From assembly GCA_007127095.1 (NCBI GenBank), contig SKZY01000060.1, forward strand, positions 1 to 49,618: a DNA stretch of 49,618 nucleotides, read 5' to 3'. The position numbers and the translations under genes were made by a program. This DNA comes from Planctomycetaceae bacterium (GTDB taxonomy: Bacteria; Planctomycetota; Planctomycetia; Pirellulales; Pirellulaceae). This document shows positions 6,657 through 49,170 of the stretch, piece after piece; the stretch's first letter is position 1; each line of letters opens with the position of its first letter. The notes beneath the pieces are model-generated. The model was not told the origin of the DNA. It made no database searches and saw only the letters and a program-made list of their open reading frames with translations.

Positions 6657-6731
6657 GACCGCTCCGCCTGAGAAAAGGCTGGAAACTGGGTCACCAGCCG
6701 AACAAGAATTCACCAACCGCCTATCCGCGGG

Positions 6732-20827: not shown

Positions 20828-22174
20828 ATGCGTATTTCTCGAAATTGTGAAGGCGCCAGTCGTCGTGATTGTCTGCGTCTCGGATTGGGAGGCCTGTTTG
20901 GCGGCGGGCTGGTCAATGCTTTGCAGGCGCGAGATGTCTCGGCCGCTGTCGGTGGCGCTCGCAGCGCCGCCAAGGCGAAGGCCTGCATTTTGATTTGGAT
21001 GGACGGTGGTCCGACCCATTTCGAGACCTTTGACCCGAAACCGGATGCACCAGCGGAGATTCGCGGCGAGTTCGAGCCGATCGCGACGAAGGTGCCTGGT
21101 GTCTTTTATTCGCAGCACATGAAGCGGTTGGCGGCATCGCTCGACAAGTACGCGATGATCCGTTCGATCCGTCACGACCAGGGCAACCACGGGGCCGGCA
21201 ACCACTACATGATGACCGGAGCACCGACGCGCATCCCGGTCGGCTGCGGTGCTTTCGTCAGTTTTCACCCGAGCATGGGATCGGTGGTGTCTCGCGAGCG
21301 AGGATCGGATTCGGCGCTGCCCGGTTATTTTTCGATGCCGTCGATGGCGCGTAGCGGTGGCCCGAACTTTTTGGGCGCGAAGTACGCCCCGTTCGTCGTC
21401 GGTGACGACCCCAACCGCAAGAACTTCCGCGTCCGCGACGTCGCGGTACCGCTCGATCTGCTCGGCGACCGATTCCAGCGTCGTAACGATTTGCGTCAGG
21501 CGATCGACCACATGCAGCGTCTGAACGATGAAGCGGCCGGCGATCCGGTTTTGGCGGCGGACGAATATTATCGCCAAGGTCTCGATTTGGTGACGTCACC
21601 CGACGCACAAGCAGCATTCGACATCAGTCTGGAAAAGGACGAGGTACGTGACGCGTACGGTCGCAACGCCTTTGGCCAACGGGCCTTGTTGGCTCGGCGG
21701 TTGGTCGAGGCCGGCGTGCCGTTCATTACGGTTTATGACGGTGGTTGGGATCATCACGCCAACCTATTTGATGCGCTCGACAAGCGATTGCCGAGTTGGG
21801 ACCAGACGGTCGCGGCCTTGATCGAAGATCTCGATCAGCGAGGGATGCTCGAATCAACGTTGGTGGTGGCGTTGGGTGAGTTCGGCAGAACCCCCAAGAT
21901 CTCGACTTTGTCGGGACAGACGAAGGCGGGACGCGACCACTGGGCAAACGCGATGAGTGTGCTGATGGCCGGTGGCGGAACGCCTGGTGGGACGGTGGTC
22001 GGGGCCACCGACCGCAACGGGTACTCGGCGGTAGAACGCGTTTTGTCGCCGGAAAACTTCGTTTCGACGATTTACACGAAGCTGGGGATCGACCCCAACA
22101 AGATTCTCTACACCCCGCAGGGTCGGCCGACACACTTGGTCAGCGATCCGACGCCGATCTCCGAACTGATCTGA
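20828..22174 (+). CDS. DUF1501 family exported protein (first of a trio)
   Basis: 448 residues; GGAG lies about 8 bases before the ATG. The leader is SRRDCLRLGLGGLFGGGL, twin-arginine like. DUF1501 belongs to the alkaline phosphatase/sulfatase superfamily. The expected blocks are seen: ILIWMDGGPTHFETFDPKP, RSIRHDQGNHGAGNHYMMTG, YDGGWDHHANLF (metal-type Asp/His), GEFGRTPKI and AGRDHWANAMSVLMAGGG. Its activity is not known to me. It stands 166 bases upstream of a DUF1549/1553 cytochrome gene, which is itself followed by a second DUF1501 gene. Confidence 0.93.
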   Translation: MRISRNCEGASRRDCLRLGLGGLFGGGLVNALQARDVSAAVGGARSAAKAKACILIWMDGGPTHFETFDPKPDAPAEIRGEFEPIATKVPGVFYSQHMKRLAASLDKYAMIRSIRHDQGNHGAGNHYMMTGAPTRIPVGCGAFVSFHPSMGSVVSRERGSDSALPGYFSMPSMARSGGPNFLGAKYAPFVVGDDPNRKNFRVRDVAVPLDLLGDRFQRRNDLRQAIDHMQRLNDEAAGDPVLAADEYYRQGLDLVTSPDAQAAFDISLEKDEVRDAYGRNAFGQRALLARRLVEAGVPFITVYDGGWDHHANLFDALDKRLPSWDQTVAALIEDLDQRGMLESTLVVALGEFGRTPKISTLSGQTKAGRDHWANAMSVLMAGGGTPGGTVVGATDRNGYSAVERVLSPENFVSTIYTKLGIDPNKILYTPQGRPTHLVSDPTPISELI

Positions 22175-22340
22175 TTCGGGCGGTGGTGATTACACCGCCG
22201 CGGAGACCGTGGCGGTCAACTGTTTCGTTCTGCTTTCACCGTTTCGCCGATCTTTCAAATATCTCGCCATGATCGCGTCCGTCGGGGACGCCGGACGTGA
22301 AGTCGGCGGGAAACACCGCTGATTTAAACGTTTGCCTGTC

Positions 22341-25300
22341 ATGCTGTCGAATCGATTTGTACTATGTCGCCACTCGCGTCGCCGTGTTGTTCGGCGACTC
22401 GAAGAGGTGATTCTCTGGTCGGCGTTGATTTTGCTCTGCTGGCTTTGGCCCGGTATCTGTACTGCGGAGACTCCCGCTGCAGAGCCAACCGCGGCAGAGG
22501 CCGAGGTCTTTTTCGAGACGCACGTTCGACCGTTGTTGGTCGAGCACTGCATCGAGTGTCACGGACCTGATGAGCAGGCTGGCGAGTTGCGGCTCGATCG
22601 TGGCGCGGCGGTCCGCCGTGGCGGCGGTTCGGGACCGGCGGTCGTCGCCGGAAAGCCGGCCGAGAGCGTCTTGATTCGGGCTGTCGGCTATCACGATTCG
22701 TCGTTGCAGATGCCGCCCGAGGGCAAATTGCCGGCAGAGGCGATCGAAATCCTAACCGCGTGGGTTCGCAGCGGCGGTTATTGGCCTGAGGAGTCGGAGC
22801 ATCCCGATTCGGCTTCGGAGCTACCGCCGGCGGAGCGATTGGAGGAAATCCGTCAGTCTCATTGGGCGTTTCGACCGGTGAATGCTGTCACTCCGCCGGA
22901 AGTGAACGACGTCGATTGGCCGCTTCAACCGCTCGATCATTTCGTATTGGCGGAGTTAGAGAAAGCCGGTTTGGAGCCGAGCGAGCCAGCGGACCGACGG
23001 ACCTTGATCAAGCGGGCCTATTTCAGGTTGATCGGGTTGCCGCCAACGTACGAAGAAGTCGAGACGTTCGCGGCCGACACGTCGCCGGATGCCTTTGAGC
23101 GGTTGGTCGATCGATTGTTGGAAAACCGCCACTATGGCGAGCGGTGGGCGCGACACTGGTTGGACATCGCCCGATATGCCGACACGACGGGTTATCTCGG
23201 GGCGAGTCGTGAAACGCGATATCCGTATGCCTACACGTACCGCGATTACGTGATCGACGCGTTCAATGACGACAAGCCGTTCGACCGGTTCATTGTGGAA
23301 CAGCTCGCGGCCGACCAACTCGATTTGCCGCCGGATCATCGCGATGCCTTAGCCGCGATGGGATTTCTGACGGTAGGTCGCCGCTTCATGAACCGTCAAC
23401 ACGACATCATCGACGACCGGATCGACGTTTTGACACGTGGCTTTTTGGGCGTCAGCGTCGCTTGTGCCCGCTGTCATGATCACAAGTTCGATCCGATCCC
23501 GACCGCCGACTACTACTCGCTCTATGGGGTGTTTGCCAGTTCGCTGGAACCGGACGAATTGCCGTTGTTGGGTGAACCGGAGCCGTCGGCCGAGTACGAC
23601 GCGTTCTTGGCCGAGCAGGCGAAGCAGCAGCAAGAGGTCGATCAGTGGCTGGAAACGCGTCGGGTCGAGACTGAGGACGAACTGCGGTCGCGAGTGGGCG
23701 ATTACCTGGTTCATTTGGCTCGCACGCTGCCGCAATATGAAGGTGACGGGGTCAAGCAGCAGGGGGAACGTGGCCCGTTGCGGCGGCAAGCCGTACGTCG
23801 ATGGCAGAGTTATGTCGCGTCGCAGGCGAACCGTTCGCATCCGATCTGGACGTTGTGGCATCGGCTCGCCAGGTTGCCGGTGGACGAGTTCTCTTCGGCG
23901 GCGACCGAGTCGTTGTCTGAAACAGACGTTGCCCAATCGCCGATATCGCCAAGGCTGTTGGACGTTTTGCGGGAATCACCGCCGGGCTCGATGATCGAGG
24001 TAGCCGAACGTTTGGGGGCTGAGTTGGAGTCGGTTTACGCCGATTGGAAGCAAGCCCGGGAAGCGGATCCCGAGGTGGAACGCTTGGATGACGACCTGGC
24101 AGAGACGCTGCGGGAGGTGCTGTTTGCGGATGATTCGCCGACGACGTTGACGACTGCAGAAATGGTATCGCACCTCGACCAGGGTGAGCGGAACCAGCAC
24201 AACAATTTGATCCGCAAGGTCAAGGAAGTGGAAGTATCGCATCCAGGTGCCCCGGCGCGGGGGATGGTGATGGTCGATAAGGCGAAGCCACAGGAACCGG
24301 TGATTTTTCGTCGCGGTCAACCTGGCAATCGCGGCGATCGAGTCCCACGACGGTTTTTACAAGTCCTGGCGCATGTCGATGGCGGTCAGCCATTCAGCCA
24401 GGGCAGCGGCCGTTTGGAGCTGGCCGAAGCGATCGCCAATCCGAACAACCCGCTGACCGCTCGCGTGATCGTCAACCGCATCTGGCAGCACCAGTTCGGG
24501 GCCGGTTTGGTACGGACGGCGAGTGATTTTGGGACTCGCGGCGAGCCACCGACTCACCCCGAATTACTCGATCATCTGGCGGCCGAGTTCATCGCCGACG
24601 GATGGTCGATCAAGCGGTTACAGCGGCGGATCATGTTGTCGGCGACCTGGCAGCAAGCGAGTCAATTTCGTGAGCAGGCTCATCGTGAAGACCCGGAAAA
24701 TCGGCTGCTCTGGCAGCAGTCGCGGCGCCGACTGGAGTTTGAACCGTTGCGGGATCGGTTGCTGGTCGCCGCCGGGCAGCTTGACGATCGGATCGGTGGC
24801 CGTTCGGTGATGATTCACAAAGACGCCGCGAGACGCGGATTGTATGCCTACGTCGATCGCGAAGATGTACCGGGGTTGTTAGCCAGTTTCGACCTGCCGA
24901 GTCCTGATGCGAGCCAATCGATCCGCGCCCAGACGACCGTGCCGCAACAGGCATTGTATTTCATGAATGCCGATTTCGTAATTCGCCAAGCGCGCGGATT
25001 AGCCGATCGGACGGCGGGCGAACCGGATGCGGTGGACCGTGTTCGGTTGCTTTATCGATTAACACTCGCCCGCGAGCCCGATGATCGGGAGCTAGCGGTC
25101 GCGGTCGAATTCGTCGACTCTTCGGTGGCTGTGGTAGCCGAGGCGATCGATGTGGAATCGGAGGCTGCCGACCCGAGCGGCGAATCGGCGGAGGGATCGG
25201 CGGGTACCGGCAGCGAAGCCGAGGGGGTCGAAGTCGACGCAAAGAGCAATGAGAACGCCGAAGTCGACGGACCGCAGGTGGACCGGTGGGTCCAATTGGC

Positions 25301-25343
25301 TCAGGTGTTGTTGAGTAGTAACGAGTTCGCGTTCGTCGATTGA
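22341..25343 (+). CDS. DUF1549/DUF1553 exported cytochrome (PSCyt1 type)
   Basis: 1000 residues from the ATG at 22341 (an in-frame TTG lies 9 bases upstream). A basic N-terminus and one hydrophobic leader (about 25-42) are followed by a PSCyt1 haem motif CIECHG (70-75), then DUF1549 (ALEKAGLEPS-like AELEKAGLEPSEPADRR, ERWARHWLDIARYADT, ARCHDHKFDPIPTADYYSLY with a second CxxCH-like ARCHDH), a helical linker rich in Gln and Glu, and DUF1553 (LTARVIVNRIWQHQFGAGLV, RRRLEFEPLRDRLL, TTVPQQALYFMN). The C-terminus has an acidic insert. It is presumably periplasmic and pairs with the flanking DUF1501 proteins. Confidence 0.93.
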   Translation: MLSNRFVLCRHSRRRVVRRLEEVILWSALILLCWLWPGICTAETPAAEPTAAEAEVFFETHVRPLLVEHCIECHGPDEQAGELRLDRGAAVRRGGGSGPAVVAGKPAESVLIRAVGYHDSSLQMPPEGKLPAEAIEILTAWVRSGGYWPEESEHPDSASELPPAERLEEIRQSHWAFRPVNAVTPPEVNDVDWPLQPLDHFVLAELEKAGLEPSEPADRRTLIKRAYFRLIGLPPTYEEVETFAADTSPDAFERLVDRLLENRHYGERWARHWLDIARYADTTGYLGASRETRYPYAYTYRDYVIDAFNDDKPFDRFIVEQLAADQLDLPPDHRDALAAMGFLTVGRRFMNRQHDIIDDRIDVLTRGFLGVSVACARCHDHKFDPIPTADYYSLYGVFASSLEPDELPLLGEPEPSAEYDAFLAEQAKQQQEVDQWLETRRVETEDELRSRVGDYLVHLARTLPQYEGDGVKQQGERGPLRRQAVRRWQSYVASQANRSHPIWTLWHRLARLPVDEFSSAATESLSETDVAQSPISPRLLDVLRESPPGSMIEVAERLGAELESVYADWKQAREADPEVERLDDDLAETLREVLFADDSPTTLTTAEMVSHLDQGERNQHNNLIRKVKEVEVSHPGAPARGMVMVDKAKPQEPVIFRRGQPGNRGDRVPRRFLQVLAHVDGGQPFSQGSGRLELAEAIANPNNPLTARVIVNRIWQHQFGAGLVRTASDFGTRGEPPTHPELLDHLAAEFIADGWSIKRLQRRIMLSATWQQASQFREQAHREDPENRLLWQQSRRRLEFEPLRDRLLVAAGQLDDRIGGRSVMIHKDAARRGLYAYVDREDVPGLLASFDLPSPDASQSIRAQTTVPQQALYFMNADFVIRQARGLADRTAGEPDAVDRVRLLYRLTLAREPDDRELAVAVEFVDSSVAVVAEAIDVESEAADPSGESAEGSAGTGSEAEGVEVDAKSNENAEVDGPQVDRWVQLAQVLLSSNEFAFVD

Positions 25344-25455
25344 GAGCGGAGTAACGCCACGGCGGCGAATCGATCCGCGGGTACACCGTGTTCGATCGAC
25401 AAGCCGCGCTGCCGTTGGTCAAAATTGGGATCGAAAGAGTGGAGTATTGAGGATC

Positions 25456-26928
25456 ATGCAAGGCGATCATACGGTGCAGGGTGTTGAGGCAGCGGTCCGT
25501 GCCTGGGAGCGGTTACCGGCGACTCGGCGAGAGTTTTTGCGTCGCAGTGGGACCGGCTTGGGGGCGCTCGGCCTGGCCGGTCTGCTTGCCGACGAGAACC
25601 CTCGCGCGCTTGCCGCGGCGCATCCCAATCCGATGCATCCCAAGGAGCCGCATTTCGCCCCGCGGGCTAAGGCGGTGATCCACCTGTTCATGAATGGGGG
25701 ACCGTCGCAGGTCGACACCTTCGACCCGAAGCCGGCGCTCGACAAGTACCACGGCAAGCCGCTGCCGATGAATCTGCGGACCGAGCGTGAGACGGGTGCG
25801 GCCTATCGATCGCCGTTCAAGTTCCAGCGTTATGGCGAGAGCGGGATCGAGGTCAGTGAATTGTTTTCGCACGTCGGCGAGATGATCGACGACGTTTGCG
25901 TGATCCGTTCGATGCACGCCAACGTGCCGAACCACGAACCGTCGTTGATGCTGATGAATTGCGGCGATTCACAGTTTGTCCGGCCGGCGGTCGGTTCCTG
26001 GGTTACCTATGGGCTGGGCAGTGAGAACCAGAACCTGCCTGGGTTCATCGCGATGTGTCCTGGCGGCTACCCGATCAAGGGCGCGGAGAATTGGCAATCG
26101 GCATTCTTACCAGGGGCGTATCAGGGAACGTACATCGACACCAAACACCAGGAGATCGAGCGGTTGATTGCCAACATCCGCAACGCTGCCGGCCTCGGAC
26201 GAGGCGAACAACGCCGTCAACTCGACCTGTTGCAGGAGATCAACCGGCGGCACCAGGAGGCTCGTCAGGGCGATGCCGAACTCGAGGCCCGGGTGCAGAG
26301 TTTCGAACTCGCCTATCGGATGCAGATGGAGGCGAGCGACGCGTTTGACATCAGCACCGAGCCGGAGTCGGTTCGCGAGCAGTATGGCGATTCAGTGCAG
26401 GCTCGGCAGATTCTGATCGCTCGGCGGTTGGTCGAACGCGGAGTCCGTTATGTGCAGTTGTGGCACGGCAGCGGCCAACCGTGGGACAGTCACGATCGGA
26501 TCGAAGACAACCATCGGCGGTTGGCGGGTGAATGCTCGCAAGCGATTGGCGCGTTACTCCGCGATCTGAAGCAACGTGGCCTACTGGACGACACACTGGT
26601 CATCTGGGGTGGCGAGTTCGGCCGCACGCCGACGGTGGAACTGCCGAAACCGGGAGCCAACGCAGGTACGACCAGCGGCCGCGATCACAACCATTATGGG
26701 TTCACGACCTGGCTAGCGGGTGGTGGTGTGAAGGGCGGCTACGTTCATGGCGCGACCGACGAGTTCGGTTTTCAGGCGGTCGAGGACCGGGTCCACGTCC
26801 ACGACCTGCATGCGACCGTCTTACAACTGCTCGGCTTTGACCATACGCGACTGACGTATCGGTATGCCGGTCGTGATTTTCGGCTGACCGATGTCCATGG
26901 CCGCGTCGTCGATGAGATCATCGCGTGA
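25456..26928 (+). CDS. DUF1501 family exported protein (second of the trio)
   Basis: 490 residues from the ATG at 25456, with GGAG and GAGG just upstream; an in-frame TTG at 25447 is less likely. A twin-arginine leader (TRREFLRRSGTGLGALGLAG) precedes the DUF1501 core: VIHLFMNGGPSQVDTFDPKP, VIRSMHANVPNHEPSLMLMN, LPGFIAMCPGG, YVQLWHGSGQPWDSHD, WGGEFGRTPTVE and GRDHNHYGFTTWLAGGG, ending HDLHATVLQLLGFDH and RYAGRDFRLTDVHG. This is the common long form of the family. It lies 112 bases after the DUF1549/1553 gene and is its likely operon partner. Confidence 0.94.
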   Translation: MQGDHTVQGVEAAVRAWERLPATRREFLRRSGTGLGALGLAGLLADENPRALAAAHPNPMHPKEPHFAPRAKAVIHLFMNGGPSQVDTFDPKPALDKYHGKPLPMNLRTERETGAAYRSPFKFQRYGESGIEVSELFSHVGEMIDDVCVIRSMHANVPNHEPSLMLMNCGDSQFVRPAVGSWVTYGLGSENQNLPGFIAMCPGGYPIKGAENWQSAFLPGAYQGTYIDTKHQEIERLIANIRNAAGLGRGEQRRQLDLLQEINRRHQEARQGDAELEARVQSFELAYRMQMEASDAFDISTEPESVREQYGDSVQARQILIARRLVERGVRYVQLWHGSGQPWDSHDRIEDNHRRLAGECSQAIGALLRDLKQRGLLDDTLVIWGGEFGRTPTVELPKPGANAGTTSGRDHNHYGFTTWLAGGGVKGGYVHGATDEFGFQAVEDRVHVHDLHATVLQLLGFDHTRLTYRYAGRDFRLTDVHGRVVDEIIA

Positions 26929-33573: not shown

Positions 33574-36500
33574 ATGAATCGCCCCCACCGGTCCCGCTTC
33601 GGTGTGACGCCGATGCTTGCTCCCTTACCCGTCATCGTCCGGTTGATCATCGTCTCGTTGATCGGAGTCGGTACCGTTGCGGCGGACGAGTCGTCACGGC
33701 CGATCGACTTCAATCGTGACATTCGTCCGATCTTGTCGGACCACTGCTTTGCCTGCCATGGCCCCGACGAAAACTCGCTGCAAGCGGGCCTGCGATTGGA
33801 CATCGCTGAGTCGGTATTCGCACCCGCGGATTCGGGAGAGCGGCCGGTCGTTGCGGGTGATCCGCAGGCGAGTGAGTTGCTGCGGCGGGTGTTGTCCGAA
33901 GATGCTGGCGAACAGATGCCACCGCCTGACGACGGCAAACCGTTGACGCCGGAACAGATGGAATCTTTGGTAAGGTGGGTGGAGCAAGGGGCAGAGTGGT
34001 CGCAACATTGGGCATTTGAACCGATCCGCAGTCCCGCACCGCCACGAGAGGAGTTAGCCGCCGGCAGCGTCAACAACCCGATCGATGCGTTCGTCTTGGC
34101 GAAGCTGAAGACATTGCAGTTGTCGCAAGCGCCTCGCGAGACGCGGGAACGGCTGATCCGCCGTGTGTCGCTTGACCTAACCGGTTTGCCGCCGACGATC
34201 GCGGAGGTCGATGATTTTCTAAACGACGATTCGGCTGACGCCTTCGAGCGAGTCGTCGATCGCCTGCTCGGAAGTGTCCACTTCGGTGAACGGTTGGCGA
34301 TTCCCTGGCTCGACCTTGCCCGCTATGGCGACACCAGCGGCTATCACAACGATTCGCTCCGTGACATGTGGTTGTGGCGTCAATGGGTGATCGAAGCATT
34401 CAACGCCAATTTGCCGTTCGACCAGTTTACGATCGAACAGCTCGCCGGCGACCTGATTCCCGATGCTTCGATCCGTCAACAGATCGCCAGCGGTTTTCAT
34501 CGCAACGTGATGACCAGCGATGAAGGCGGCTTGATCGATGCCGAGTATCGGAATCTGTATGTCGTCGATCGGGTCGCTACCACGGGCGTCACCTGGCTGG
34601 GGATGACAATTGCTTGTGCCCAATGCCATGACCACAAGTACGATCCGGTCTCGCAAGCCGACTACTATCGACTCTACGCGTTCTTCAACAACGTTCCGGA
34701 AAGTGGCAAGGATGGGGTTCGCGACCGCAATCCGGTTCCGTTCCTCCGCGTGCCATCAGCGGAACAGGAGTCGCGATTGGAGTTGTTGGAGCGGGACTTG
34801 CAGACGTCGGAAGCCGCGTTAGCTGCCTTCGAAGAATCGCTCCCAGCCCGTCAGACTGCTTGGGAGCAAGCGTTGTTGGCAGCCGACGAGTTACCGAAAC
34901 CGCCGATCGCAGCCGCTCATTTTCCGCTCGACAGCGACGGTGACGCGAAGCTTGAAGCGGGTGAATCGTTAAGCGCCACGGCGCATGGAGAGGCTCGCTT
35001 TGCTGACGGGGTCGTCGGGGCCAGTTTTGATGCCGACCAAGAAAATTGGTTCGAATATCGCGATCGGTTCGGGTTCGAGAAGGACCAGCCGTTTTCGGTC
35101 GCCAGCTTTTTGTACGTCACGGCTGAGGGCGGCGCCCCGCTGGGAAAGATGGATGATGCCAACGGTGCCCGTGGCTGGGATATCGAGTTTCATGGGTTGC
35201 GGCCGAGTGTCCACCTGATCCACCGCTGGCCCGACGACGCGATCCATATCCAAGCCGACCAGGACTTGCCGGCCGATACGTTTTCGCACGTGGCATTCAC
35301 GTATGACGGTTCGGGCAAAGCCGAAGGTTTGAAGTTGTACGTCAATGGAATGCTCGCCCAAACGTCGGTCAAACGAGATGGATTGCAAGGTTCGATCCGC
35401 AACGAAGTGCCGTTTGCGATCGGTCGCCGTGGCGCCGCCAGTACCCGCTTCACCGGTCGCATCGATGACGTGCGGATCTATCAGCGGGAGCTGTCGACGA
35501 CGGAGGTAGCGACGATCGGTGCTGGTGAGCGATATGAATTGGTCGCGATCGCGCCGGCTGACCGCAGCGACGAGCAGCGAGATCGCTTGGCCGAATTTTT
35601 TCGGCAGACGCAGTCGAGCGAATTGGCTCAACTGCAGAGTGACGTGAAGTCGGTGCGCCAGGCGAAGGACGAATTGATCGCTCAGATCCCGAACACCATG
35701 GTGATGGCCGAACGGGATGAACCTCGAGAAACGTTCATCAAGGTTCGTGGCGAATATGACCTCGACGGCGACCGCGTCGAGGCCGGCGTTCCCGGATTCC
35801 TGCCTCCGATCGAGGCGGACGCCGAGCCGTCGGCTCTCAATCGGCTCGACTTGGCCAAGTGGTTGGTGTCGCGTGACCATCCGCTGACCGCGCGGGTCAC
35901 GATCAACCGCTGGTGGGCGATGCTGTTTGGCAACGGGCTGGTTAAGACCGTGAACGATTTCGGATCGCAGGGTGAACCGCCGAGTCACCCTGAGTTACTC
36001 GATTGGTTAGCGGCCGACCTGATGCGGGACTGGGATACCAAGCGGGTGATCAAGCAGATCGTGTTGAGTGCGACGTATCAGCAAGCTGCGCGGGTATCGC
36101 CCGAATTATTGGCCGTTGACCAAGAGAACCGTTGGCTCGCCCGGGGACCACGTCAGCGGCTCGACGCCGAGTTGATTCGCGACAACGCCTTATCGATCGC
36201 GGGAATTTTGAATCCGGAGCTCGGTGGAAAGAGCATCAAACCGGCGCAGCCGGCCGGTACTTGGGAAATCAACGAAATGAGCGGCTATCGCTATGAGAAG
36301 TCGCGAGGAGCGGACCTCTATCGACGCGGGTTGTATGTCTACTGGCGGCGGTCGACTGTTTATCCTTCGTTCGTCACGCTCGACGCCCCGACTCGCGAAT
36401 TCTGTGTCGCCCAACGGGCCAACACGAGCACTCCTTTGCAATCGTTGGTGTTGATGAATGACCCGGTGTTTGTCGAGGCGGCACGGGCATTCGCGCAGCG

Positions 36501-36774
36501 GATTTTGGCCACACCAGGGCTCGATGACGCCGCCCGATTGCGACTGGCGTGGCGATTGTCGCTAGCGCGGCAGCCGACCACGGACGAGTTCGCGGTGCTC
36601 CAGCGGATCCTGAATCAACAACTCGAAACCTTCCGGCAAGATCCGCAGGCTGCTGCGGAATTGGTCGCCGTCGGTGACTTTGCCAGGCCTGAATCGTATG
36701 AAGCCGCTGAACTGGCAGCTTGGACCGCGGTCGGCAATGTACTTCTGAACCTCAATGAAACGATTTCGAACTGA
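33574..36774 (+). CDS. DUF1549/DUF1553 exported cytochrome with LamG-like insert
   Basis: 1066 residues. A leader (about 15-36) is followed by a PSCyt1 haem motif CFACHGPDE (58-66), DUF1549 (DAFVLAKLKTLQLSQAPRET, ERLAIPWLDLARYGDTSGYH, CAQCHDHKYDPVSQADYYRL), a LamG/concanavalin-like domain (about 450-640: RFADGVVGASFDADQENWFE, FSHVAFTYDGSG, LKLYVNGMLAQTS, GRIDDVRIYQRELS) and DUF1553 (LTARVTINRWWAMLFGNGLV, GPRQRLDAELIRDNALSIAG, PLQSLVLMNDPVF). The LamG part suggests carbohydrate binding, which the 22341-25343 paralogue lacks. The TGA stop overlaps the ATG of the DUF1501 gene by one base (TGATG), so translation is coupled. Confidence 0.94.
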   Translation: MNRPHRSRFGVTPMLAPLPVIVRLIIVSLIGVGTVAADESSRPIDFNRDIRPILSDHCFACHGPDENSLQAGLRLDIAESVFAPADSGERPVVAGDPQASELLRRVLSEDAGEQMPPPDDGKPLTPEQMESLVRWVEQGAEWSQHWAFEPIRSPAPPREELAAGSVNNPIDAFVLAKLKTLQLSQAPRETRERLIRRVSLDLTGLPPTIAEVDDFLNDDSADAFERVVDRLLGSVHFGERLAIPWLDLARYGDTSGYHNDSLRDMWLWRQWVIEAFNANLPFDQFTIEQLAGDLIPDASIRQQIASGFHRNVMTSDEGGLIDAEYRNLYVVDRVATTGVTWLGMTIACAQCHDHKYDPVSQADYYRLYAFFNNVPESGKDGVRDRNPVPFLRVPSAEQESRLELLERDLQTSEAALAAFEESLPARQTAWEQALLAADELPKPPIAAAHFPLDSDGDAKLEAGESLSATAHGEARFADGVVGASFDADQENWFEYRDRFGFEKDQPFSVASFLYVTAEGGAPLGKMDDANGARGWDIEFHGLRPSVHLIHRWPDDAIHIQADQDLPADTFSHVAFTYDGSGKAEGLKLYVNGMLAQTSVKRDGLQGSIRNEVPFAIGRRGAASTRFTGRIDDVRIYQRELSTTEVATIGAGERYELVAIAPADRSDEQRDRLAEFFRQTQSSELAQLQSDVKSVRQAKDELIAQIPNTMVMAERDEPRETFIKVRGEYDLDGDRVEAGVPGFLPPIEADAEPSALNRLDLAKWLVSRDHPLTARVTINRWWAMLFGNGLVKTVNDFGSQGEPPSHPELLDWLAADLMRDWDTKRVIKQIVLSATYQQAARVSPELLAVDQENRWLARGPRQRLDAELIRDNALSIAGILNPELGGKSIKPAQPAGTWEINEMSGYRYEKSRGADLYRRGLYVYWRRSTVYPSFVTLDAPTREFCVAQRANTSTPLQSLVLMNDPVFVEAARAFAQRILATPGLDDAARLRLAWRLSLARQPTTDEFAVLQRILNQQLETFRQDPQAAAELVAVGDFARPESYEAAELAAWTAVGNVLLNLNETISN

Positions 36775-38234
36775 TGATCAACGGTAACGAAAACTCATTC
36801 CGCCGGCTTCAGCGGCGGGCCTTCCTGCAAGCTAACTCAACCGGGTTGGGGGCATTCGGTCTGGCGTCTTTGGTGAACCCCGCCGCCTTCGGTCGTGAGG
36901 TCGCTGCGGCCGAGGAAAACCTCGCCGTCCCGGGCGCTTTGCAGCGACTTCACTTTCCGCCGCGGGCGAAGCGGATCATTTATCTGTTCATGTCGGGGGC
37001 GCCTTCACAACTCGACCTGTTCGACCCCAAGCCGACACTGATCGAAATGACCGGCAAGGACCTGCCGGAAAGTGTGCGTCAGGGGCAGCGGATCACGACG
37101 ATGACGAGCGGCCAAAAGAATTTGTTCTGCGTCGGTTCGCCGTTCAAGTTCGCCAAGCACGGCGAAGTCGGGATGGACATTTCGGAGTTGCTGCCCAAAT
37201 TGTCCGAGGTTGCCGATGAGTGTACGTTTCTTCGGTCGCTGCACACCGACCCGATCAACCATGACCCGGCTGTCACTTTTTTCGCCACCGGGAACCAACA
37301 GCCGGGCCGACCGACGATGGGTGCGTGGCTCGCCTATGGTCTCGGCAGTGACAGCGAAGAATTGCCGGCGTTTGTCGTCTTGACCAGCGGTGGCGGTGGT
37401 CAGACGCTGCAAACGCGGTATTGGGGCAGCGGTTTTTTACCGGCTCAATATGGCGGTGTCCAATTTCGGAACGCTGGCGATCCGGTGCTGTTCGTATCGA
37501 ACCCGCCGGGTATCAGCAGCGACAGTCGGCGAAAATTGCTCGACGCGACCAATGATTTGAATCGGATGGCGCTCGACACGGTCGGCGACCCGGCGATCGA
37601 GGCACAGATCGAAAATTACGAACTCGCCTTCCGGATGCAGACGAGTGTCCCCGAATTGACCGACCTGTCGCAGGAATCGACCGAGACGCTCGACCTGTAT
37701 GGCGCCACGCCGGGCCGTCCTTCGTTCGCCAACAATTGCTTGCTGGCCCGTCGGATGGCCGAACGCGGCGTCCGGTTCATTCAACTGTGCCACCGTGATT
37801 GGGACCACCACGGCGGCCTGCCGTCGGGGTTGCGGACCAAATGCGAGGAAACCGATCAGGCCGCCGCGGCATTGGTGATCGACCTGAAACGTCGTGGTCT
37901 GCTCGACGATACGATCGTCGTTTGGGGGGGCGAGTTCGGACGGACTGCCTACAGCCAAGGGGCGATCAAGCCGGACAACTTCGGACGCGATCACCATCCC
38001 CGTTGCTTCACCGTATGGATGGCCGGAGGGGGACTGAAACGGGGGTACATCCACGGGGAGACCGACGATTTCGGCTACAATATCACCCGTGACCCGGTTC
38101 ATGTTCACGATCTGCACGCGACGTTATTGCGGCAATTGGGCGTCGATCATAAGCGTTTGACCCATCGGCACGAAGGCCGCGATTATCGGCTGACCGACAT
38201 TGCCGGCAACGTGATCGACAGCTTGCTCACCTAA
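36774..38234 (+). CDS. DUF1501 family exported protein (third copy)
   Basis: 486 residues, starting in the TGATG overlap with the cytochrome gene. A leader of the RRAFLQANSTGLGAFGLASL type is followed by the DUF1501 core: IIYLFMSGAPSQLDLFDPKP, FLRSLHTDPINHDPAVTFFA, LPAFVVLTSGGGG, FIQLCHRDWDHHGGLP (metal-type DxxHH), WGGEFGRTAYSQG and FGRDHHPRCFTVWMAGGGLK, ending VHDLHATLLRQLGVDH. It is a sulfatase-superfamily relative of unknown activity. The one-base overlap argues that it and the LamG-bearing cytochrome are made in fixed ratio and act together. Confidence 0.94.
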   Translation: MINGNENSFRRLQRRAFLQANSTGLGAFGLASLVNPAAFGREVAAAEENLAVPGALQRLHFPPRAKRIIYLFMSGAPSQLDLFDPKPTLIEMTGKDLPESVRQGQRITTMTSGQKNLFCVGSPFKFAKHGEVGMDISELLPKLSEVADECTFLRSLHTDPINHDPAVTFFATGNQQPGRPTMGAWLAYGLGSDSEELPAFVVLTSGGGGQTLQTRYWGSGFLPAQYGGVQFRNAGDPVLFVSNPPGISSDSRRKLLDATNDLNRMALDTVGDPAIEAQIENYELAFRMQTSVPELTDLSQESTETLDLYGATPGRPSFANNCLLARRMAERGVRFIQLCHRDWDHHGGLPSGLRTKCEETDQAAAALVIDLKRRGLLDDTIVVWGGEFGRTAYSQGAIKPDNFGRDHHPRCFTVWMAGGGLKRGYIHGETDDFGYNITRDPVHVHDLHATLLRQLGVDHKRLTHRHEGRDYRLTDIAGNVIDSLLT

Positions 38235-38314: not shown

Positions 38315-41300
38315 TCAGCGCGACAGGTTCGGCAATGTCCCCAATTGCAGCCGATCGAACTCGACGTTGATCACCTCCATCGTCCGGGTGTTGACGCTCA
38401 TCCGCTTCACCGCGACGTTCTCGCCGGCGGCACCGGTCGGCAACGTGCGGTGCATCGTCGCGCTGCGGGCGGCATCCCCCTCAATCAAGAAGACGTCCTT
38501 GGCGGCTGTGTAGGTTGCCCGTTGGGCCTGGCCGTTGAACAACCCGCGATCGTTGCGGGTTTGGAACAGAACACCGCCCAACGCTTCCATTTCCCAGGCG
38601 ATGTCGAGATCGCTTCGTTGGCGGGTCGAATCGACGCCGAGCCGTAGACGCTGGCAATCGAGCGTCGATTCACCCAACCGTAAACCTTGCATCGCTTCGG
38701 CGTCGATCAGGTCATCCCAGGCCTTCACCGGTCGACTGGCGACACGGACACCGGTGTAGAAGTCGAGACTCTGATTCGCCAAATTCGCCTCGAACGACTC
38801 CTTATATACCAAATGCATTCCGGTCAGTGAGAATCCGCCCAGCTTCCGGCCGTCACTCGTCACGCCGGCGCTCAACGATGTCGCAGCCGTCTGCATCCAA
38901 GCCCGATACCAGCCGGGGCCGGGACCACTCAGGAGGCTGCTTTCGGGGACGAAGGTCAATTCGGGGGCGGCCAACAAGTGACGCCCCTTGCGGACGCCGC
39001 GGGAGGTCAATTGGTTTGCCGTGACCAACAACGGGTTGTTATCCGATGAGGTCACCATGACCTGGCGTATGGTCGTCGACCGAATGCTGTCGAGTTCTCG
39101 CATCGCGACCGGTTGATCGAAGGCGACCCTTAGTTGGTCGCCAATCAAGCTGATGTCCCAGACATCCTGTTCGCGTCCTACCATCACCGTGCCACGGATA
39201 TCGATGCCGTCGGTCAACACGACGCGGGCACCATCGAACAGCATCTGGCCTCGCCAACGGCAGCGTGGCGGTGAGACCCACTTCAGCGGCATCGTCCCCG
39301 GGTTCAAAACTTCACCGCCGCGCCCAGACCGTCGGTCGGTAGGCTGATTGGCAACGTCGGCGGACGACTCCAACGGCGTCGGGGTCGGCTTGCCCGCAGC
39401 GACTCGCGGCAGCATCTCTGACGGCAATTGAAACTCGCCGGCATCGTTGATCCAGACCAGGTTGTCGGCCAACCGGACCTGGATCATCGGGCCGATAAAA
39501 TAGCCATCACCGACCGCCAATCTTGCCGGATCATCGATTCCGCTACCGATCTGCAGGATCTCATCACCCGATGAATCACGGATCTGTAGACGTTGGCCGG
39601 TCAACACGGCCGGCAGCGTTCCCGTCGGGGTCCGCAAGCTGTGTTTCAATGACACGTCGCCGACGACGGTCAGATCGCTGGCGGTCAGTTCGGTTCCCGA
39701 AATCCGTAGCCTGGCGTTGATCGTATCGCCATGGACCGTCGGCCGTGGACCGCTGACCGGTGACGCTGATCCGACCAGATTTGCTGTCGTCCCGTTTTCG
39801 TTTCTCCGTTCGTCATCCGGTTGGCGGACCCACTGACGGAGCGGGTGTGCCGTAGCCGTCGTTGCGGTGGCCGATTGCGTCTCCGGCGTTTCGTCGAAGT
39901 CAAAATAGAGCCGCAGTAAGCGGGTGGCGACATCGACCATCGGCGACTGCATGTTGACCCGGCCGGTCGCTTGGAATCGTTGTGGCCGCACCGAACGGAG
40001 CCAGGAGTCACCGGTCAAATCGTGGCTGCCGGCTTGCATCACCAGCAGCACCGAATCACAGGAAAACCGTCCGTCGTCATTCATCAAGGCGGTCACATCG
40101 CCATCGACACGCAACGAGAACTGTCCGTTCTCGTCCGGTTGGTCCAACTTGATGCCATCGGTCCAACGCAGACGCTTAACCGGCAACGGTGTCGGGCCAC
40201 CGAACTCGACCAATCCTGAACCGATCGCGTCGAAGGCGCCGATCTGAGTCGGGTCTTGCGGGTTGAGCTGATAAGAAAATTGCTTGAATCGCCAGGTGTG
40301 CCCCGAGTAGCTGATCCGTGCCCCGGCGCTGCCAGTCATCTGTAGTAACCCCGCCCGAGCGTCAAAATGGATCTGCTCGGCGGCGACCTCCGCCAAAAAA
40401 CTCGGCAGCTTGATCCGTGCCGGTTGTCCCTCGGCGACGATCGAATGCAAATAGTCGCCGATCTGCTCGGCGGCCGGTTGCGAATGTCCAGCGGGGTTCT
40501 TCAGTCCGAGAGAGGGCGACGGTTCGTCGACCGGTCGGAACAGGTTTGCGAATTGCAGTTTGAGCAGTTCGCAATCGAATTGATCGATCTCAGTCGCGGT
40601 ACGGTGTTCGAGTCGTACGCGGTCGTGCAGCGTCAGTTCATTCGACGCGAAATTGAATATCACTCGTCCGGCACAGCGGAGCTTCGCGCTCGCAGGTTCG
40701 GGGCTTGTGTCGGAGCTGTTGCCAAAGCTTCCGCCATCGCCGCTAATCGAATCGGTGGTCTGCGGCTCCTGGTCGAACTCACCCGCCGAACTAACCGCTG
40801 CATCGGACGTCTGGGATGGTTGATTGCCGACCTGCCAAAGCCCGCCACCGGGCAGCGGCACGGTCAGTTCGTCCAGGTAAATCAATTCCATCCGGTTAAG
40901 GATCGATAGGCCCCCTTCGCCGCCGGGTTGAATCCTGCCGAGCGGCGCCAGGTGCAACGTCAGGTCGCGGCCGGCCAGCCGAATCCCACCCATTCGTACC
41001 GAGATCGGCTGGGTCGTCCAGATCTTGCGAAAATCGATCCCGAAATCGCTGGAGACGATTTCGAGGTGTGCGGCTTCTCCGCCAGGCCTACCCATGTCGA
41101 AGCCGTTACCGACACTCCGGATTCGTACTTGGCCGATCATCCGGCCACGCTCGATCGGCGGCGCCCCGCCGCTCATCACGTCGAGCGATTCGCTGAACTT
41201 GATTTCAGCTCCCTCCTCAGCTTCGAGAATTAGCGGCGATTCGCTGTTCATCCCCAACACGACGGTCAATGGCCACAATTTCCATTGGTCGTCGCCAATC

Positions 41301-41548
41301 TGCTCCCAATTCTCGAACAGCAACGCCCCATCGCGGGTCTGCAATCGTTTGCAGTTTTCTTGTTGCCAGGCATCGGCGGGGAACAGAGCTGCCAACGATT
41401 CGTTACGGTGAAGCCCTGGTGTTTGTGCGAACTCGAGCGGTTCGATCGGGTCAGGCTCCAACCAACGAACGAACGTCAACTCATAGGTCACGCCGAGCGT
41501 CACCAGAGCTAGCATCGTCACGACGTATCGCTTCAATCGCTGCTGCAT
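38315..41548 (-). CDS. Giant envelope protein in the lptC-lptA position, LptA/OstA-like
   Basis: 1077 residues with one N-terminal transmembrane helix (about 9-26) and the rest predicted extracytoplasmic and beta-rich, as in LptC. Several segments have the look of LptA/OstA strands: RVIFNFASNELTLHDRVRLE, FDGARVVLTDGIDIRGTVMV, and near the end RATYTAAKDVFLIEGDAARS, very like the OstA 'A.YD.....L.LEGDA' unit. Gene order supports this: it follows kdsD and kdsC on the same strand, as lptC-lptA do in proteobacteria. I infer a periplasmic LPS-transport bridge protein, several times longer than LptC (about 190) plus LptA (about 180). This is not proven by sequence alone. Confidence 0.75.
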   Translation of the reverse strand: MQQRLKRYVVTMLALVTLGVTYELTFVRWLEPDPIEPLEFAQTPGLHRNESLAALFPADAWQQENCKRLQTRDGALLFENWEQIGDDQWKLWPLTVVLGMNSESPLILEAEEGAEIKFSESLDVMSGGAPPIERGRMIGQVRIRSVGNGFDMGRPGGEAAHLEIVSSDFGIDFRKIWTTQPISVRMGGIRLAGRDLTLHLAPLGRIQPGGEGGLSILNRMELIYLDELTVPLPGGGLWQVGNQPSQTSDAAVSSAGEFDQEPQTTDSISGDGGSFGNSSDTSPEPASAKLRCAGRVIFNFASNELTLHDRVRLEHRTATEIDQFDCELLKLQFANLFRPVDEPSPSLGLKNPAGHSQPAAEQIGDYLHSIVAEGQPARIKLPSFLAEVAAEQIHFDARAGLLQMTGSAGARISYSGHTWRFKQFSYQLNPQDPTQIGAFDAIGSGLVEFGGPTPLPVKRLRWTDGIKLDQPDENGQFSLRVDGDVTALMNDDGRFSCDSVLLVMQAGSHDLTGDSWLRSVRPQRFQATGRVNMQSPMVDVATRLLRLYFDFDETPETQSATATTATAHPLRQWVRQPDDERRNENGTTANLVGSASPVSGPRPTVHGDTINARLRISGTELTASDLTVVGDVSLKHSLRTPTGTLPAVLTGQRLQIRDSSGDEILQIGSGIDDPARLAVGDGYFIGPMIQVRLADNLVWINDAGEFQLPSEMLPRVAAGKPTPTPLESSADVANQPTDRRSGRGGEVLNPGTMPLKWVSPPRCRWRGQMLFDGARVVLTDGIDIRGTVMVGREQDVWDISLIGDQLRVAFDQPVAMRELDSIRSTTIRQVMVTSSDNNPLLVTANQLTSRGVRKGRHLLAAPELTFVPESSLLSGPGPGWYRAWMQTAATSLSAGVTSDGRKLGGFSLTGMHLVYKESFEANLANQSLDFYTGVRVASRPVKAWDDLIDAEAMQGLRLGESTLDCQRLRLGVDSTRQRSDLDIAWEMEALGGVLFQTRNDRGLFNGQAQRATYTAAKDVFLIEGDAARSATMHRTLPTGAAGENVAVKRMSVNTRTMEVINVEFDRLQLGTLPNLSR

Positions 41549-41612
41549 GCTCTCGATCGCGGGGCGCCGGTTCCCGAGCGAAGTCCGATTTCGCCGCCGG
41601 GATCGATGACCA

Positions 41613-42182
41613 TTACGCCCTGACGTATCCCTCCCAGATCGATTTGGCTTGCATCAAACGTTCGACCAACTCACGGACTGCTCCCTCGCCACCCCGACAC
41701 TCGGTCAGCCAACTTACCGAGTGGCGGACGTCTCGACAGGCGTCGGCCGGGGCGACCGATAAACCGACCCATTCCAACACGGCCAAGTCGGGTAGGTCGT
41801 CGCCGATGTAGGCGACTTGGTCAGCGACTAATCCGAGTTCATCGACCAATCGCTCGACCACCGGAAGTTTCGACTCAACTCCTTGAAATAGATGCCCGAT
41901 CCCCAATTCCGCTGCCCGTCGGGCGACCACCGAACTGTCTCGCGAACTGATGATCCCGAACTCCAGTCCAGCCGACATCCAGGCCTTGATCCCCATCCCG
42001 TCACGGACGTGAAATTGCTTGATCTCGTTGCCCGCGGTGTCGAAATAGAGCTGGCCTCCCGTCAACACGCCGTCGACATCTGACAAGAGCAATCGGATCG
42101 GCGCCGCGATCGCCGCATCAACGGCGGCAGGTTCATCGTCGGCCCTCGACTCTTGGCCGCTCCGCGTGGTTCGGTCAGCCAT
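41613..42182 (-). CDS. kdsC: Kdo-8-phosphate phosphatase KdsC
   Basis: 189 residues of the HAD superfamily without a cap domain. Motif I is LLLSDVDGVLTGG (DVDG at 35-38, nucleophile and acid/base Asp), motif II GIISSRDSS, the motif III Lys is in GVESKLPVV, and motif IV is YIGDDLPDL. KFHVRDGMGIK-like FHVRDGMGIKAW is a KdsC signature. It removes phosphate from 3-deoxy-D-manno-octulosonate 8-phosphate to give Kdo. An extra N-terminal 28 residues are polar. The start lies 3 bases after the kdsD stop, so both are surely in one operon. Confidence 0.93.
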   Translation of the reverse strand: MADRTTRSGQESRADDEPAAVDAAIAAPIRLLLSDVDGVLTGGQLYFDTAGNEIKQFHVRDGMGIKAWMSAGLEFGIISSRDSSVVARRAAELGIGHLFQGVESKLPVVERLVDELGLVADQVAYIGDDLPDLAVLEWVGLSVAPADACRDVRHSVSWLTECRGGEGAVRELVERLMQAKSIWEGYVRA

Positions 42183-42185
42183 CGG

Positions 42186-43277
42186 TTAAGCCCTTCGGCG
42201 AAGTTTGCCGTCGTGGCCGAACTCCACAATCGTAGCTGCCGATTCGCGACCACGACTGCCGCCCGCTGCACGGGTCGCTGGAGCCATCGCGATCGCATCG
42301 GTGATGTCGAGTAAACCGAGCGGGCGCCCCGATCGATCGAGTACCGGCAATTCACTGATCCGGCGATCCTTCAAGATCTCGATCGCATCGATCAGCAGTA
42401 CTCCTGAATCGACGCTCTGGAACTTCTTGGTCATCACCGCCGCGATCGGCAATTCGAGCGAGTTGACTTGCGGGTTCTCCATCAGTCGCGCGAAATCGCT
42501 ATCGGTGAACAAACCCACGAGTCGTCCGGTGTCATCGACCAACATCACCGCCCCGGTCCGCCGGCCGCCGCGACCGCTGGCGATGATCGTCTCGCGTACC
42601 GTCCCGCCGGCTGCCGCGACCCGACATTCTGCGACGGGCCGCATCAAGCGGTTGACGGGGGCGAGTTTTTGGCCCAGGTTGCCACCTGGGTGGAATCTCG
42701 CGAAATCGGCTGCCGAAAAGCCGATCAATCGACTGGCTAGGATCGCGATCGCGTCGCCTACCGCCATCATCAGAGTAGTGCTGGTCGTGGGGGCGAGGCC
42801 CAGCGGGTCGGCTTCGGCGTGCGGGCCGAGCGTGATCACGAGGTCGGCCAGTTCGGCCAACGGATTGTCGTTGGTCGCCGTAATCGCCAGCAGGCTCGAG
42901 GCATGCCGGTGCAAGTGAGGGGCGATTCGCAACACCTCTTCACTACGGCCGCTGTTGGACAACGCCAGCACGACGTCATCGCGGCCGACACGGCCTAAGT
43001 CGCCATGAATCGCCTCGCTGGGATGCAAGAAGTGGGCCCGATTGCCGGTGCTGGCGAGCGTCGCGACCAACTTTTGGCCGATTAAGCCGGCCTTGCCGAC
43101 CCCGGTAACGACGACCGAACCGCGGCAGGCGGCGATCCGCTCGGCCGCTTCGACCGCCTCGGGACCGATCTGGCCGGCCAAAGTTTGTAGCGCTGCCGCC
43201 TCGATCGCGACGGCTTCACGGATCACCCGCAACCGTTCCAGTTGAGTCGCAGGGAGGCCCGATGGATGGCTATTCAC
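42186..43277 (-). CDS. kdsD: Arabinose-5-phosphate isomerase KdsD
   Basis: 363 residues. A SIS sugar-isomerase domain (about 35-170) contains SVVVTGVGKAGLIGQKLVAT, FLHPSEAIHGDLG and VLALSNSGRSEEVL, followed by HAEADPLGLAPTTSTTLMMA and FARFHPGGNLGQKL, all typical of KdsD/KpsF. Two CBS domains follow (about 205-330). It converts ribulose 5-phosphate to arabinose 5-phosphate, the first step toward Kdo, in the cytoplasm. The C-terminus has an extra 30-residue Arg/Gly-containing tail. It sits between hemA (121 bases) and kdsC (3 bases). Confidence 0.94.
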   Translation of the reverse strand: MNSHPSGLPATQLERLRVIREAVAIEAAALQTLAGQIGPEAVEAAERIAACRGSVVVTGVGKAGLIGQKLVATLASTGNRAHFLHPSEAIHGDLGRVGRDDVVLALSNSGRSEEVLRIAPHLHRHASSLLAITATNDNPLAELADLVITLGPHAEADPLGLAPTTSTTLMMAVGDAIAILASRLIGFSAADFARFHPGGNLGQKLAPVNRLMRPVAECRVAAAGGTVRETIIASGRGGRRTGAVMLVDDTGRLVGLFTDSDFARLMENPQVNSLELPIAAVMTKKFQSVDSGVLLIDAIEILKDRRISELPVLDRSGRPLGLLDITDAIAMAPATRAAGGSRGRESAATIVEFGHDGKLRRRA

Positions 43278-48093: not shown

Positions 48094-48167
48094 GGGCGTG
48101 TAGCTCAGTTGGTTAGAGCGCGTCGCTGATAACGACGAGGTCCCAGATTCGAGTTCTGGCACGCCCA
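48094..48167 (+). tRNA. tRNA-Ile (GAT)
   Basis: 74 nucleotides. The acceptor arms GGGCGTG and CACGCCC pair fully, the D arm is TAGCTCAGTTGGTTAGAGC, the anticodon stem CGTCG/CGACG holds loop CTGATAA (anticodon GAT at 48128-48130), and the T arm CCAGA-TTCGAGT-TCTGG is perfect. No CCA is encoded. The spacer to tRNA-Ala (48168-48296) contains TTCCACCACG, which can pair with CGTGGTGG just before 48256, a possible processing stem. Confidence 0.97.
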
Positions 48168-48296
48168 CTTTGATTTCCACCACGGTTTTGTCGTCTGGTG
48201 ATTCGCCGCTGGCGGAGACACCATCCGACGGGCCTGAATCATCGTGGTGGGGAATCGACAACCAATCGGCTGACGCAACAGCGTCGGACGCATCAG

Positions 48297-48369
48297 GGGG
48301 GTGTAGCTCAGTTGGGAGAGCATCTGCTTTGCAAGCAGAGGGTCATCGGTTCAAGTCCGTTCACCTCCA
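48297..48369 (+). tRNA. tRNA-Ala (TGC)
   Basis: 73 nucleotides. Acceptor arms GGGGGTG and CACCTCC pair with one G-U, the anticodon stem TCTGC/GCAGA holds loop TTTGCAA (anticodon TGC at 48330-48332), and the T arm ATCGG-TTCAAGT-CCGTT has one U-U mismatch. No CCA is encoded. With tRNA-Ile it forms the pair usually found between 16S and 23S rRNA genes, but no rRNA is seen within the window. Confidence 0.95.
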
Positions 48370-48378
48370 TGTCGGAAA

Positions 48379-48431
48379 CCTCGGTAAACACGGCGGAAAA
48401 CTCATTTCCCCCGTCTTTACCGGGGTTTTTT
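48379..48431 (+). terminator. Rho-independent terminator after tRNA-Ala
   Basis: CCTCGGTAAA (48379-48388) pairs with TTTACCGGGG (48416-48425) with one G-U, and the inside continues with ACGG..GGAAA against TTTCC..CCGT. Six T residues follow at 48426-48431. It lies 9 bases after the tRNA and covers the stop codon of the opposing integrase relic. Confidence 0.85.
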
Positions 48432-49170
48432 CGTTTCTTGCCCGGACGTTGCGTAATCCTTGCGGTGCCGGATTTGGTGCCACTTTTGACGGCGATCGTG
48501 CCGGATTTCGTGCCGCTTGCTCGCAACCCGCCAGGGGGAAGCGGTCGCCCGGTCAAAATCGCTATCCGTGACCAGCAGATAGTTTTTCTCGGCAACCGCA
48601 GCGGTGTTGCCCAGCCATGCGCACACGACGGGCCGCGGGAACTCCCGCTCCAACTCGGTTTGCCGACTGGCCCGCATCGAATGGAACAAACGCGCCCAGG
48701 GGACGATGCCCGCTCGTTTCAGGATCTTCAAAAACTGTGTTCGCAAGTTGACATTGGCCCAACCGCCCGGACGCATGGCAGCCGCCCGGTAACCTGGCTT
48801 GTCCACGACGTACTCGGCACCGTCGGCGGCGACCGCGAACGCTTTGTCGAGTATCTGGCGAAGCTCGGGGAACAGAGGTACCGATCGGATGCCCCGCCCT
48901 TCGTGGTGTTCCACCTTCGGCTCGGGAACGCTCATGCGGCCGTTCTCCCAGTCGATGTCGGACCATTTCAGCGAAAGTACCTCGGACGGACACCGTAGCC
49001 CGCCAAACCGACATCTTCATCACCTGCCCCCAGACGATCTTCGTCGCCGGCTTCTTGTTTGGCCCGTGCCGCTCCATGAACTCATCCAGGAACCTATCGA
49101 GACTGACTGCGGTTTTCACCTCGACCGGTTCGAGCGGGTCGCAACGGGCAAAACCGACGACGCTGCTGGC
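48417..49170 (-). pseudogene. Decayed tyrosine-type site-specific integrase
   Basis: Two minus-strand frames carry integrase sequence. From about 49170 to 49010 one frame has the core-binding segment VSLDRFLDEFMERHGPNKKP followed by ATKIVWGQV. From about 49005 to 48417 another frame has the catalytic domain: [20 protein letters not shown] (box I Arg), [29 protein letters not shown] (HxxR), VVCAWLGNT and AEKNYLLV (nucleophile Tyr). In the planctomycete family about 90 residues normally separate the two parts, so a deletion with a frame change has removed them. No intact N-terminal arm-binding domain was found. Its 3' end abuts tRNA-Ala, the usual place for an element integrated at a tRNA. Confidence 0.85.

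Follow-up and report, generated by a model that had tools for sequence, protein, structure and literature searches.

In E. coli, separate proteins are strung together to form the Lpt bridge, and how many LptA copies a working bridge contains is not, to our knowledge, settled. In the window, by which we mean the whole stretch of 49,618 nucleotides analysed, a putative bridge gene follows kdsD-kdsC, as in the proteobacterial kdsD-kdsC-lptC-lptA-lptB cluster. However, a single gene replaces lptC-lptA here, and lptB is found on another contig (C347). The original prediction had described, on a single strand, the order kdsD, kdsC and then a beta-rich, single-anchor protein of 1077 residues (hereafter the giant). 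Both the coordinates (Table 1) and an AlphaFold2 model agree with this description. We consider it likely that the giant is a single-chain LptC-(LptA)n Lpt bridge, standing in for LptC and LptA. This reading rests on domain homology and fold, on an anchor helix in the model, on synteny with Kdo genes and on the presence of partner genes.

Table 1. Position of the giant gene, its predicted domains, its neighbours and other open reading frames of the window
Feature	Position	Strand	Remarks
Giant gene	38315-41548	minus	ATG start, 1077 codons, 1077 aa
Residues 2-30, N-terminal helix	41459-41545	minus	helix in model; hydrophobic N terminus aligned in relatives
Residues 64-232, LptC-like beta-jellyroll domain	40853-41359	minus	fold; sequence support weak
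Residues 235-551, LptA-like jelly roll(s)	39896-40846	minus	fold at 235-466; relative L055; profile match
Residues 600-874, jelly roll like LptD N-terminal domain	38927-39751	minus	middle piece folded alone
Residues 886-1069, C-terminal LptA-like jelly roll	38342-38893	minus	fold; LptD_N in relatives L057, L058, L067
kdsC, Kdo-8-phosphate phosphatase	41613-42182	minus	189 aa; TIGR01670, 163 bits vs cut-off 107
kdsD, arabinose-5-phosphate isomerase (SIS + 2 CBS)	42186-43277	minus	GTG start, 363 aa
CxxCH/DUF1501-like ORFs	992-2398, 2427-6716, 20828-22174, 22332-25343, 25447-26928, 33574-36774, 36774-38234		by-eye resemblance

The product of kdsD matched the KdsD/KpsF family (TIGR00393, 241 bits for a cut-off of 204), and its SIS and CBS domains were recognised. 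Three bases separate kdsD from kdsC, and 64 bases separate kdsC from the giant gene. A promoter scan of the region gave no sigma-70-like site and was uninformative. The gene order was then compared across 72 loci carrying the giant gene, taken from two collections in which at least six genomes are counted twice. Upstream sequence was available for 69 loci; 66 of them have KdsC upstream of the giant with the same orientation, mostly at less than ~200 bases and never at more than ~700. KdsD precedes KdsC in the loci of relatives. In family f21, from the same class, the order is kdsD-giant and BLAST shows no KdsC match in between. A protein match to the giant was observed in 152 of the 196 genomes of the order, usually in ORFs of about 1000-1200 codons, and the family profile matched in every one of the 16 genomes sampled from the class. 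Close homologues occur in Rhodopirellula, Rubripirellula, Stieleria, Roseimaritima and relatives. Because of this recurrence within the order and of the KdsC gene found upstream in nearly all loci, the giant is not a chance open frame.

The fold was modelled with AlphaFold2 on 34 sequences (mean pLDDT 78 and pTM 0.59 for the whole model). The model shows one long helix at the N terminus, the remainder being almost only beta strands. This helix is inferred to be an inner-membrane anchor. Comparison with solved structures using VIA-align showed that the first beta domain (residues 64-232) resembles LptC 4b54_B (Z 12.8, 2.5 A over 121) and 6mit_C, the LptC of an LptBFGC structure (Z 12.6, 2.9 A over 130). 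Residues 235-466 matched LptA 2r19_A (Z 10.4, 3.4 A over 127). The middle piece (466-895), folded alone, reached a pLDDT of 81 and a pTM of 0.74; its residues 135-409, corresponding to 600-874 of the protein, matched residues 49-248 of LptD 4q35_A (Z 12.2, 4.1 A over 170). A further match of this piece was LptA 2r19_B (Z 10.5). Finally, residues 886-1069 matched LptA 7zax (Z 9.0, 4.0 A over 131). Overall, all structured blocks matched LptC, LptA or the N-terminal domain of LptD, with the caveat that a single fold is common to these three. LptD matches spanning nearly the whole model had an rmsd of 16-41 A and were discarded as evidence. Low-confidence linkers were observed near 240-281, 554-599 and 717-750. 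Because of the pTM of 0.59 and of several long linkers with pLDDT below 50, the overall shape of the giant and the continuity of its groove are uncertain. By our own count, the model has ~60 strands. Since one LptA has about 16, the giant as modelled would roughly amount to one LptC and the equivalent of three LptA. With two sheets and 0.48 nm per strand, the rod would be ~14 nm long, an estimate without any measurement behind it.

OstA-like strand units had been proposed for the giant. By Pfam, the window protein remains sub-threshold whereas relatives pass. Taken alone, it gives only sub-threshold LptD_N/LptA matches at the C terminus (E 0.14 with Pfam and 0.079 with NCBIfam) and no Pfam LptC match. 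Among 31 family members, 22 match PF03968 (LptD_N/LptA; best E 1.1e-9) and 19 match the LptA model (best E 3.9e-9). The matches fall at two separate places, ~350-440 and ~870-1050, and several exceed the curated Pfam cut-off, the best relative scores on LptD_N/LptA reaching 36.8 bits for a cut-off of 20.4. LptD_N is above cut-off at the equivalent of giant residues 235-551 in relative L055, and at the equivalent of 886-1069 in L057, L058 and L067. For the collection scan, a family-level alignment (A2) was used, the full one (A1) being too diverse. In a PDB sequence search, LptA 8onu matched the family profile with an E value of 6e-4. In profile-profile comparison, moreover, blocks 236-600 and 751-1077 of the giant are mutual internal repeats (97%, P 6.5e-11; the reversed decoy gave P 0.02). 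Each of these blocks also matches the OstA region of the Brocadiae LptC-OstA proteins (96-97%; decoys P ~0.4-0.7). The match of the first domain to the Brocadiae LptC domain was weak (hhalign, P 0.006). The LptC identity of the N terminus, weak by sequence, is based on fold, position and homologues.

Pfam LptC matches were surveyed in 148 genomes of the phylum, of which 27 had one; PF06835 matched in none of the 16 genomes sampled from the window's class. Some of the longest LptC-containing frames in this survey may be mis-framed. Outside the class, a protein of 635-664 residues was found after kdsD-kdsC, in which Pfam places LptC at 53-216 and recognises LptD_N in three to four stretches, both far above cut-off (whole-protein E 1e-14 to 1e-26). 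In other lineages, the protein in this place has 559, 536-575, 981 or 1103-1124 residues and an N-terminal LptC above cut-off. LptC and LptD_N were both above cut-off in L218 (1112 aa) and L219 (931 aa), but no kds gene was found next to either. Just one of the 27 genomes, G216, has LptC as a protein on its own (174 aa), encoded directly behind kdsD-kdsC (L213:7507-8031). The size of the protein behind kdsD-kdsC hence ranges from 174 to more than 1100 residues across the phylum. Families f50 and f71 were taken by us to be 'Brocadiae' on the basis of gene content and size. The Brocadiae-type LptC-OstA protein (635-669 aa) shares with the giant its locus and an N-terminal LptC, followed by 3-4 OstA stretches; it differs in being shorter and in scoring far above the Pfam cut-offs. 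In the light of these proteins, the giant is best read as one, strongly diverged, of a series of LptC-(OstA)n proteins that runs through the phylum. We lean towards the broader view that the periplasmic Lpt bridge of Planctomycetota in general consists of a single polypeptide, made of LptC and several LptA units, with its length set genetically, no need for LptA oligomerisation, and a unit number varying by lineage. In G225, the protein encoded behind kdsC (L179:6933-7964) has 343 aa and a single LptD_N stretch, and a 405-aa ORF comes next; this protein is possibly a short form of the series.

Genes for the LptB2FG transporter and for LptD are present in the giant's genome. LptB (contig C347) scored 315 bits for a cut-off of 240, two LptF/LptG genes were found on contigs C236 and C180, and LptD (contig C34, L136:4485-7682, 1065 aa) has 38% identity to a planctomycete LptD. 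This LptD has no Pfam match and was found only with a planctomycete LptD query; the lack of any PF04453 or PF19838 match in the genome is indeed a false negative. PF03968 (LptA) and PF06835 (LptC) did not match in the genome either, in a Pfam search that is insensitive here. As neither the giant nor this LptD was recognised by Pfam, these negatives count for less, and a divergent LptA could have been missed. The assembly, moreover, is a draft that is about 96% complete. These gaps leave some room for the idea that the giant is only an extended LptC with extra jelly rolls, the last contact with LptD being made by a separate, highly divergent LptA. We regard this as unlikely, because the C-terminal domain of the giant is LptA-like by fold and, in relatives, by Pfam, because no separate LptA was found in the genome, and because neither lptA nor lptB (the latter sought by a simple ABC-motif test) was recognised beside the giant in the loci examined.

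The original prediction that one protein joins an LptC-type anchored domain to LptA-type jelly rolls and replaces lptC-lptA is thus supported by fold and profiles, by Pfam LptC and LptA/LptD_N fusions behind kdsD-kdsC elsewhere in the phylum, and by a genome with LptB, LptF/G and LptD in which no separate LptC or LptA was detected. Of the checks suggested with it, fold comparison of the predicted structure found OstA-type (LptC/LptA/LptD N-terminal) jelly rolls, the continuity of the groove being uncertain; in the profile comparison with LptA, LptC and LptD, relatives exceeded the Pfam cut-off, the N-terminal LptC match being weak; the genome search found lptB/F/G/D and detected no intact separate lptA or lptC; and lengths were ~1000-1200 codons in the order and 559-1124 residues in other classes. 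Neither of the results named beforehand as refuting, a predicted fold lacking an OstA-type groove or intact separate lptA and lptC genes, appeared.

A single anchor and a long beta groove would also suit a bridge-like lipid transfer protein of the AsmA/TamB or LPD-3/VPS13 type, carrying phospholipid rather than LPS and lying beside Kdo genes by chance. Indeed, LPD-3 (9cap) ranked 16 among Foldseek matches for the whole model and 1, with a probability of 0.35, for the middle piece; TamAB matches were weak and came alongside Lpt matches. However, the top VIA-align matches were LptC, LptA and LptD, Pfam LptC and LptD_N are above cut-off in homologues, and the Kdo synteny holds phylum-wide, so that we judge this possibility very improbable. 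Foldseek matches to Rhs, Tc-toxin and teneurin proteins, all with a probability below 0.3, were judged to be beta-architecture noise. Slightly harder still to credit is an all-beta periplasmic or surface protein without transport role, resembling LptA by common beta architecture only: Z values in the middle range are often obtained with beta proteins and the identity of the giant to LptA and LptC is just ~10-15%, but the same three Lpt proteins were found by four blocks, independent sequence evidence exists (8onu, Pfam in relatives, profile comparison), and the giant family, matched in 16 of 16 genomes sampled from the class, is nearly universal there and lies next to Kdo genes.

As a single-chain LptC-(LptA)n bridge, the giant would be held in the inner membrane by its N-terminal helix, and its LptC-like domain would dock on the LptB2FG transporter. 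The LptA-like jelly rolls that follow in the same polypeptide would form a groove in which the lipid A portion of LPS travels towards LptD, a separate outer-membrane protein. Bridge length would then be fixed by one gene, not by oligomerisation. LPS as the cargo and its transport, docking on LptFG and LptD, groove continuity and function as a single copy are all inferred, and no experiment exists.

Compared with known systems, the giant resembles LptC (E. coli YrbK, PF06835) in its N-terminal membrane helix, its periplasmic jelly roll and its gene placed directly after kdsC. However, LptC has ~190 residues and ends after one domain, whereas several further jelly rolls follow in the giant on the same chain. 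With LptA (PF03968 / TIGR03002) it shares the jelly-roll fold; an OstA signature in at least two blocks exceeds the Pfam cut-off in relatives but stays below it in the giant itself. LptA itself is soluble, has one domain and oligomerises, whereas the units of the giant form a single chain with one another and with an anchored LptC-like domain. Since the giant does not fit the single-domain definition of either family, it was filed as a member of neither. A transenvelope Mla bridge of Veillonella is likewise proposed to serve lipid traffic between two membranes; it is a different system from Lpt, with phospholipid as cargo (PMC10665443). LptD has been reported before in planctomycetes (PMC3422733), and in diderm Firmicutes two proteins of ~200 aa are the candidates for LptA and LptC (PMC5007114). 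No description of a natural LptC-LptA fusion was found in the open literature, most subscription papers and all bioRxiv preprints being outside the search. Within the literature searched, the parts (LptC, LptA, the Lpt pathway) are known and their union in one ~1000-residue chain is not described. A survey described the planctomycete Lpt system as largely reduced (PMC8871954); a single-chain bridge would explain this, LptC and LptA being fused and diverged beyond standard models, not missing. A natural single-chain bridge would also fix stoichiometry and order, so that bridge length and the continuous-groove model become directly testable.

Elsewhere in the window, several ORFs (Table 1) are similar, by eye only, to the paired large CxxCH-containing and smaller DUF1501-like proteins that are common in planctomycetes. 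In the region of 48094-48369 and 48417-48935, near the contig end, tRNA-Ile(GAT) and tRNA-Ala(TGC) are adjacent, and a minus-strand ORF beside this pair resembles the C-terminal part of a tyrosine recombinase.
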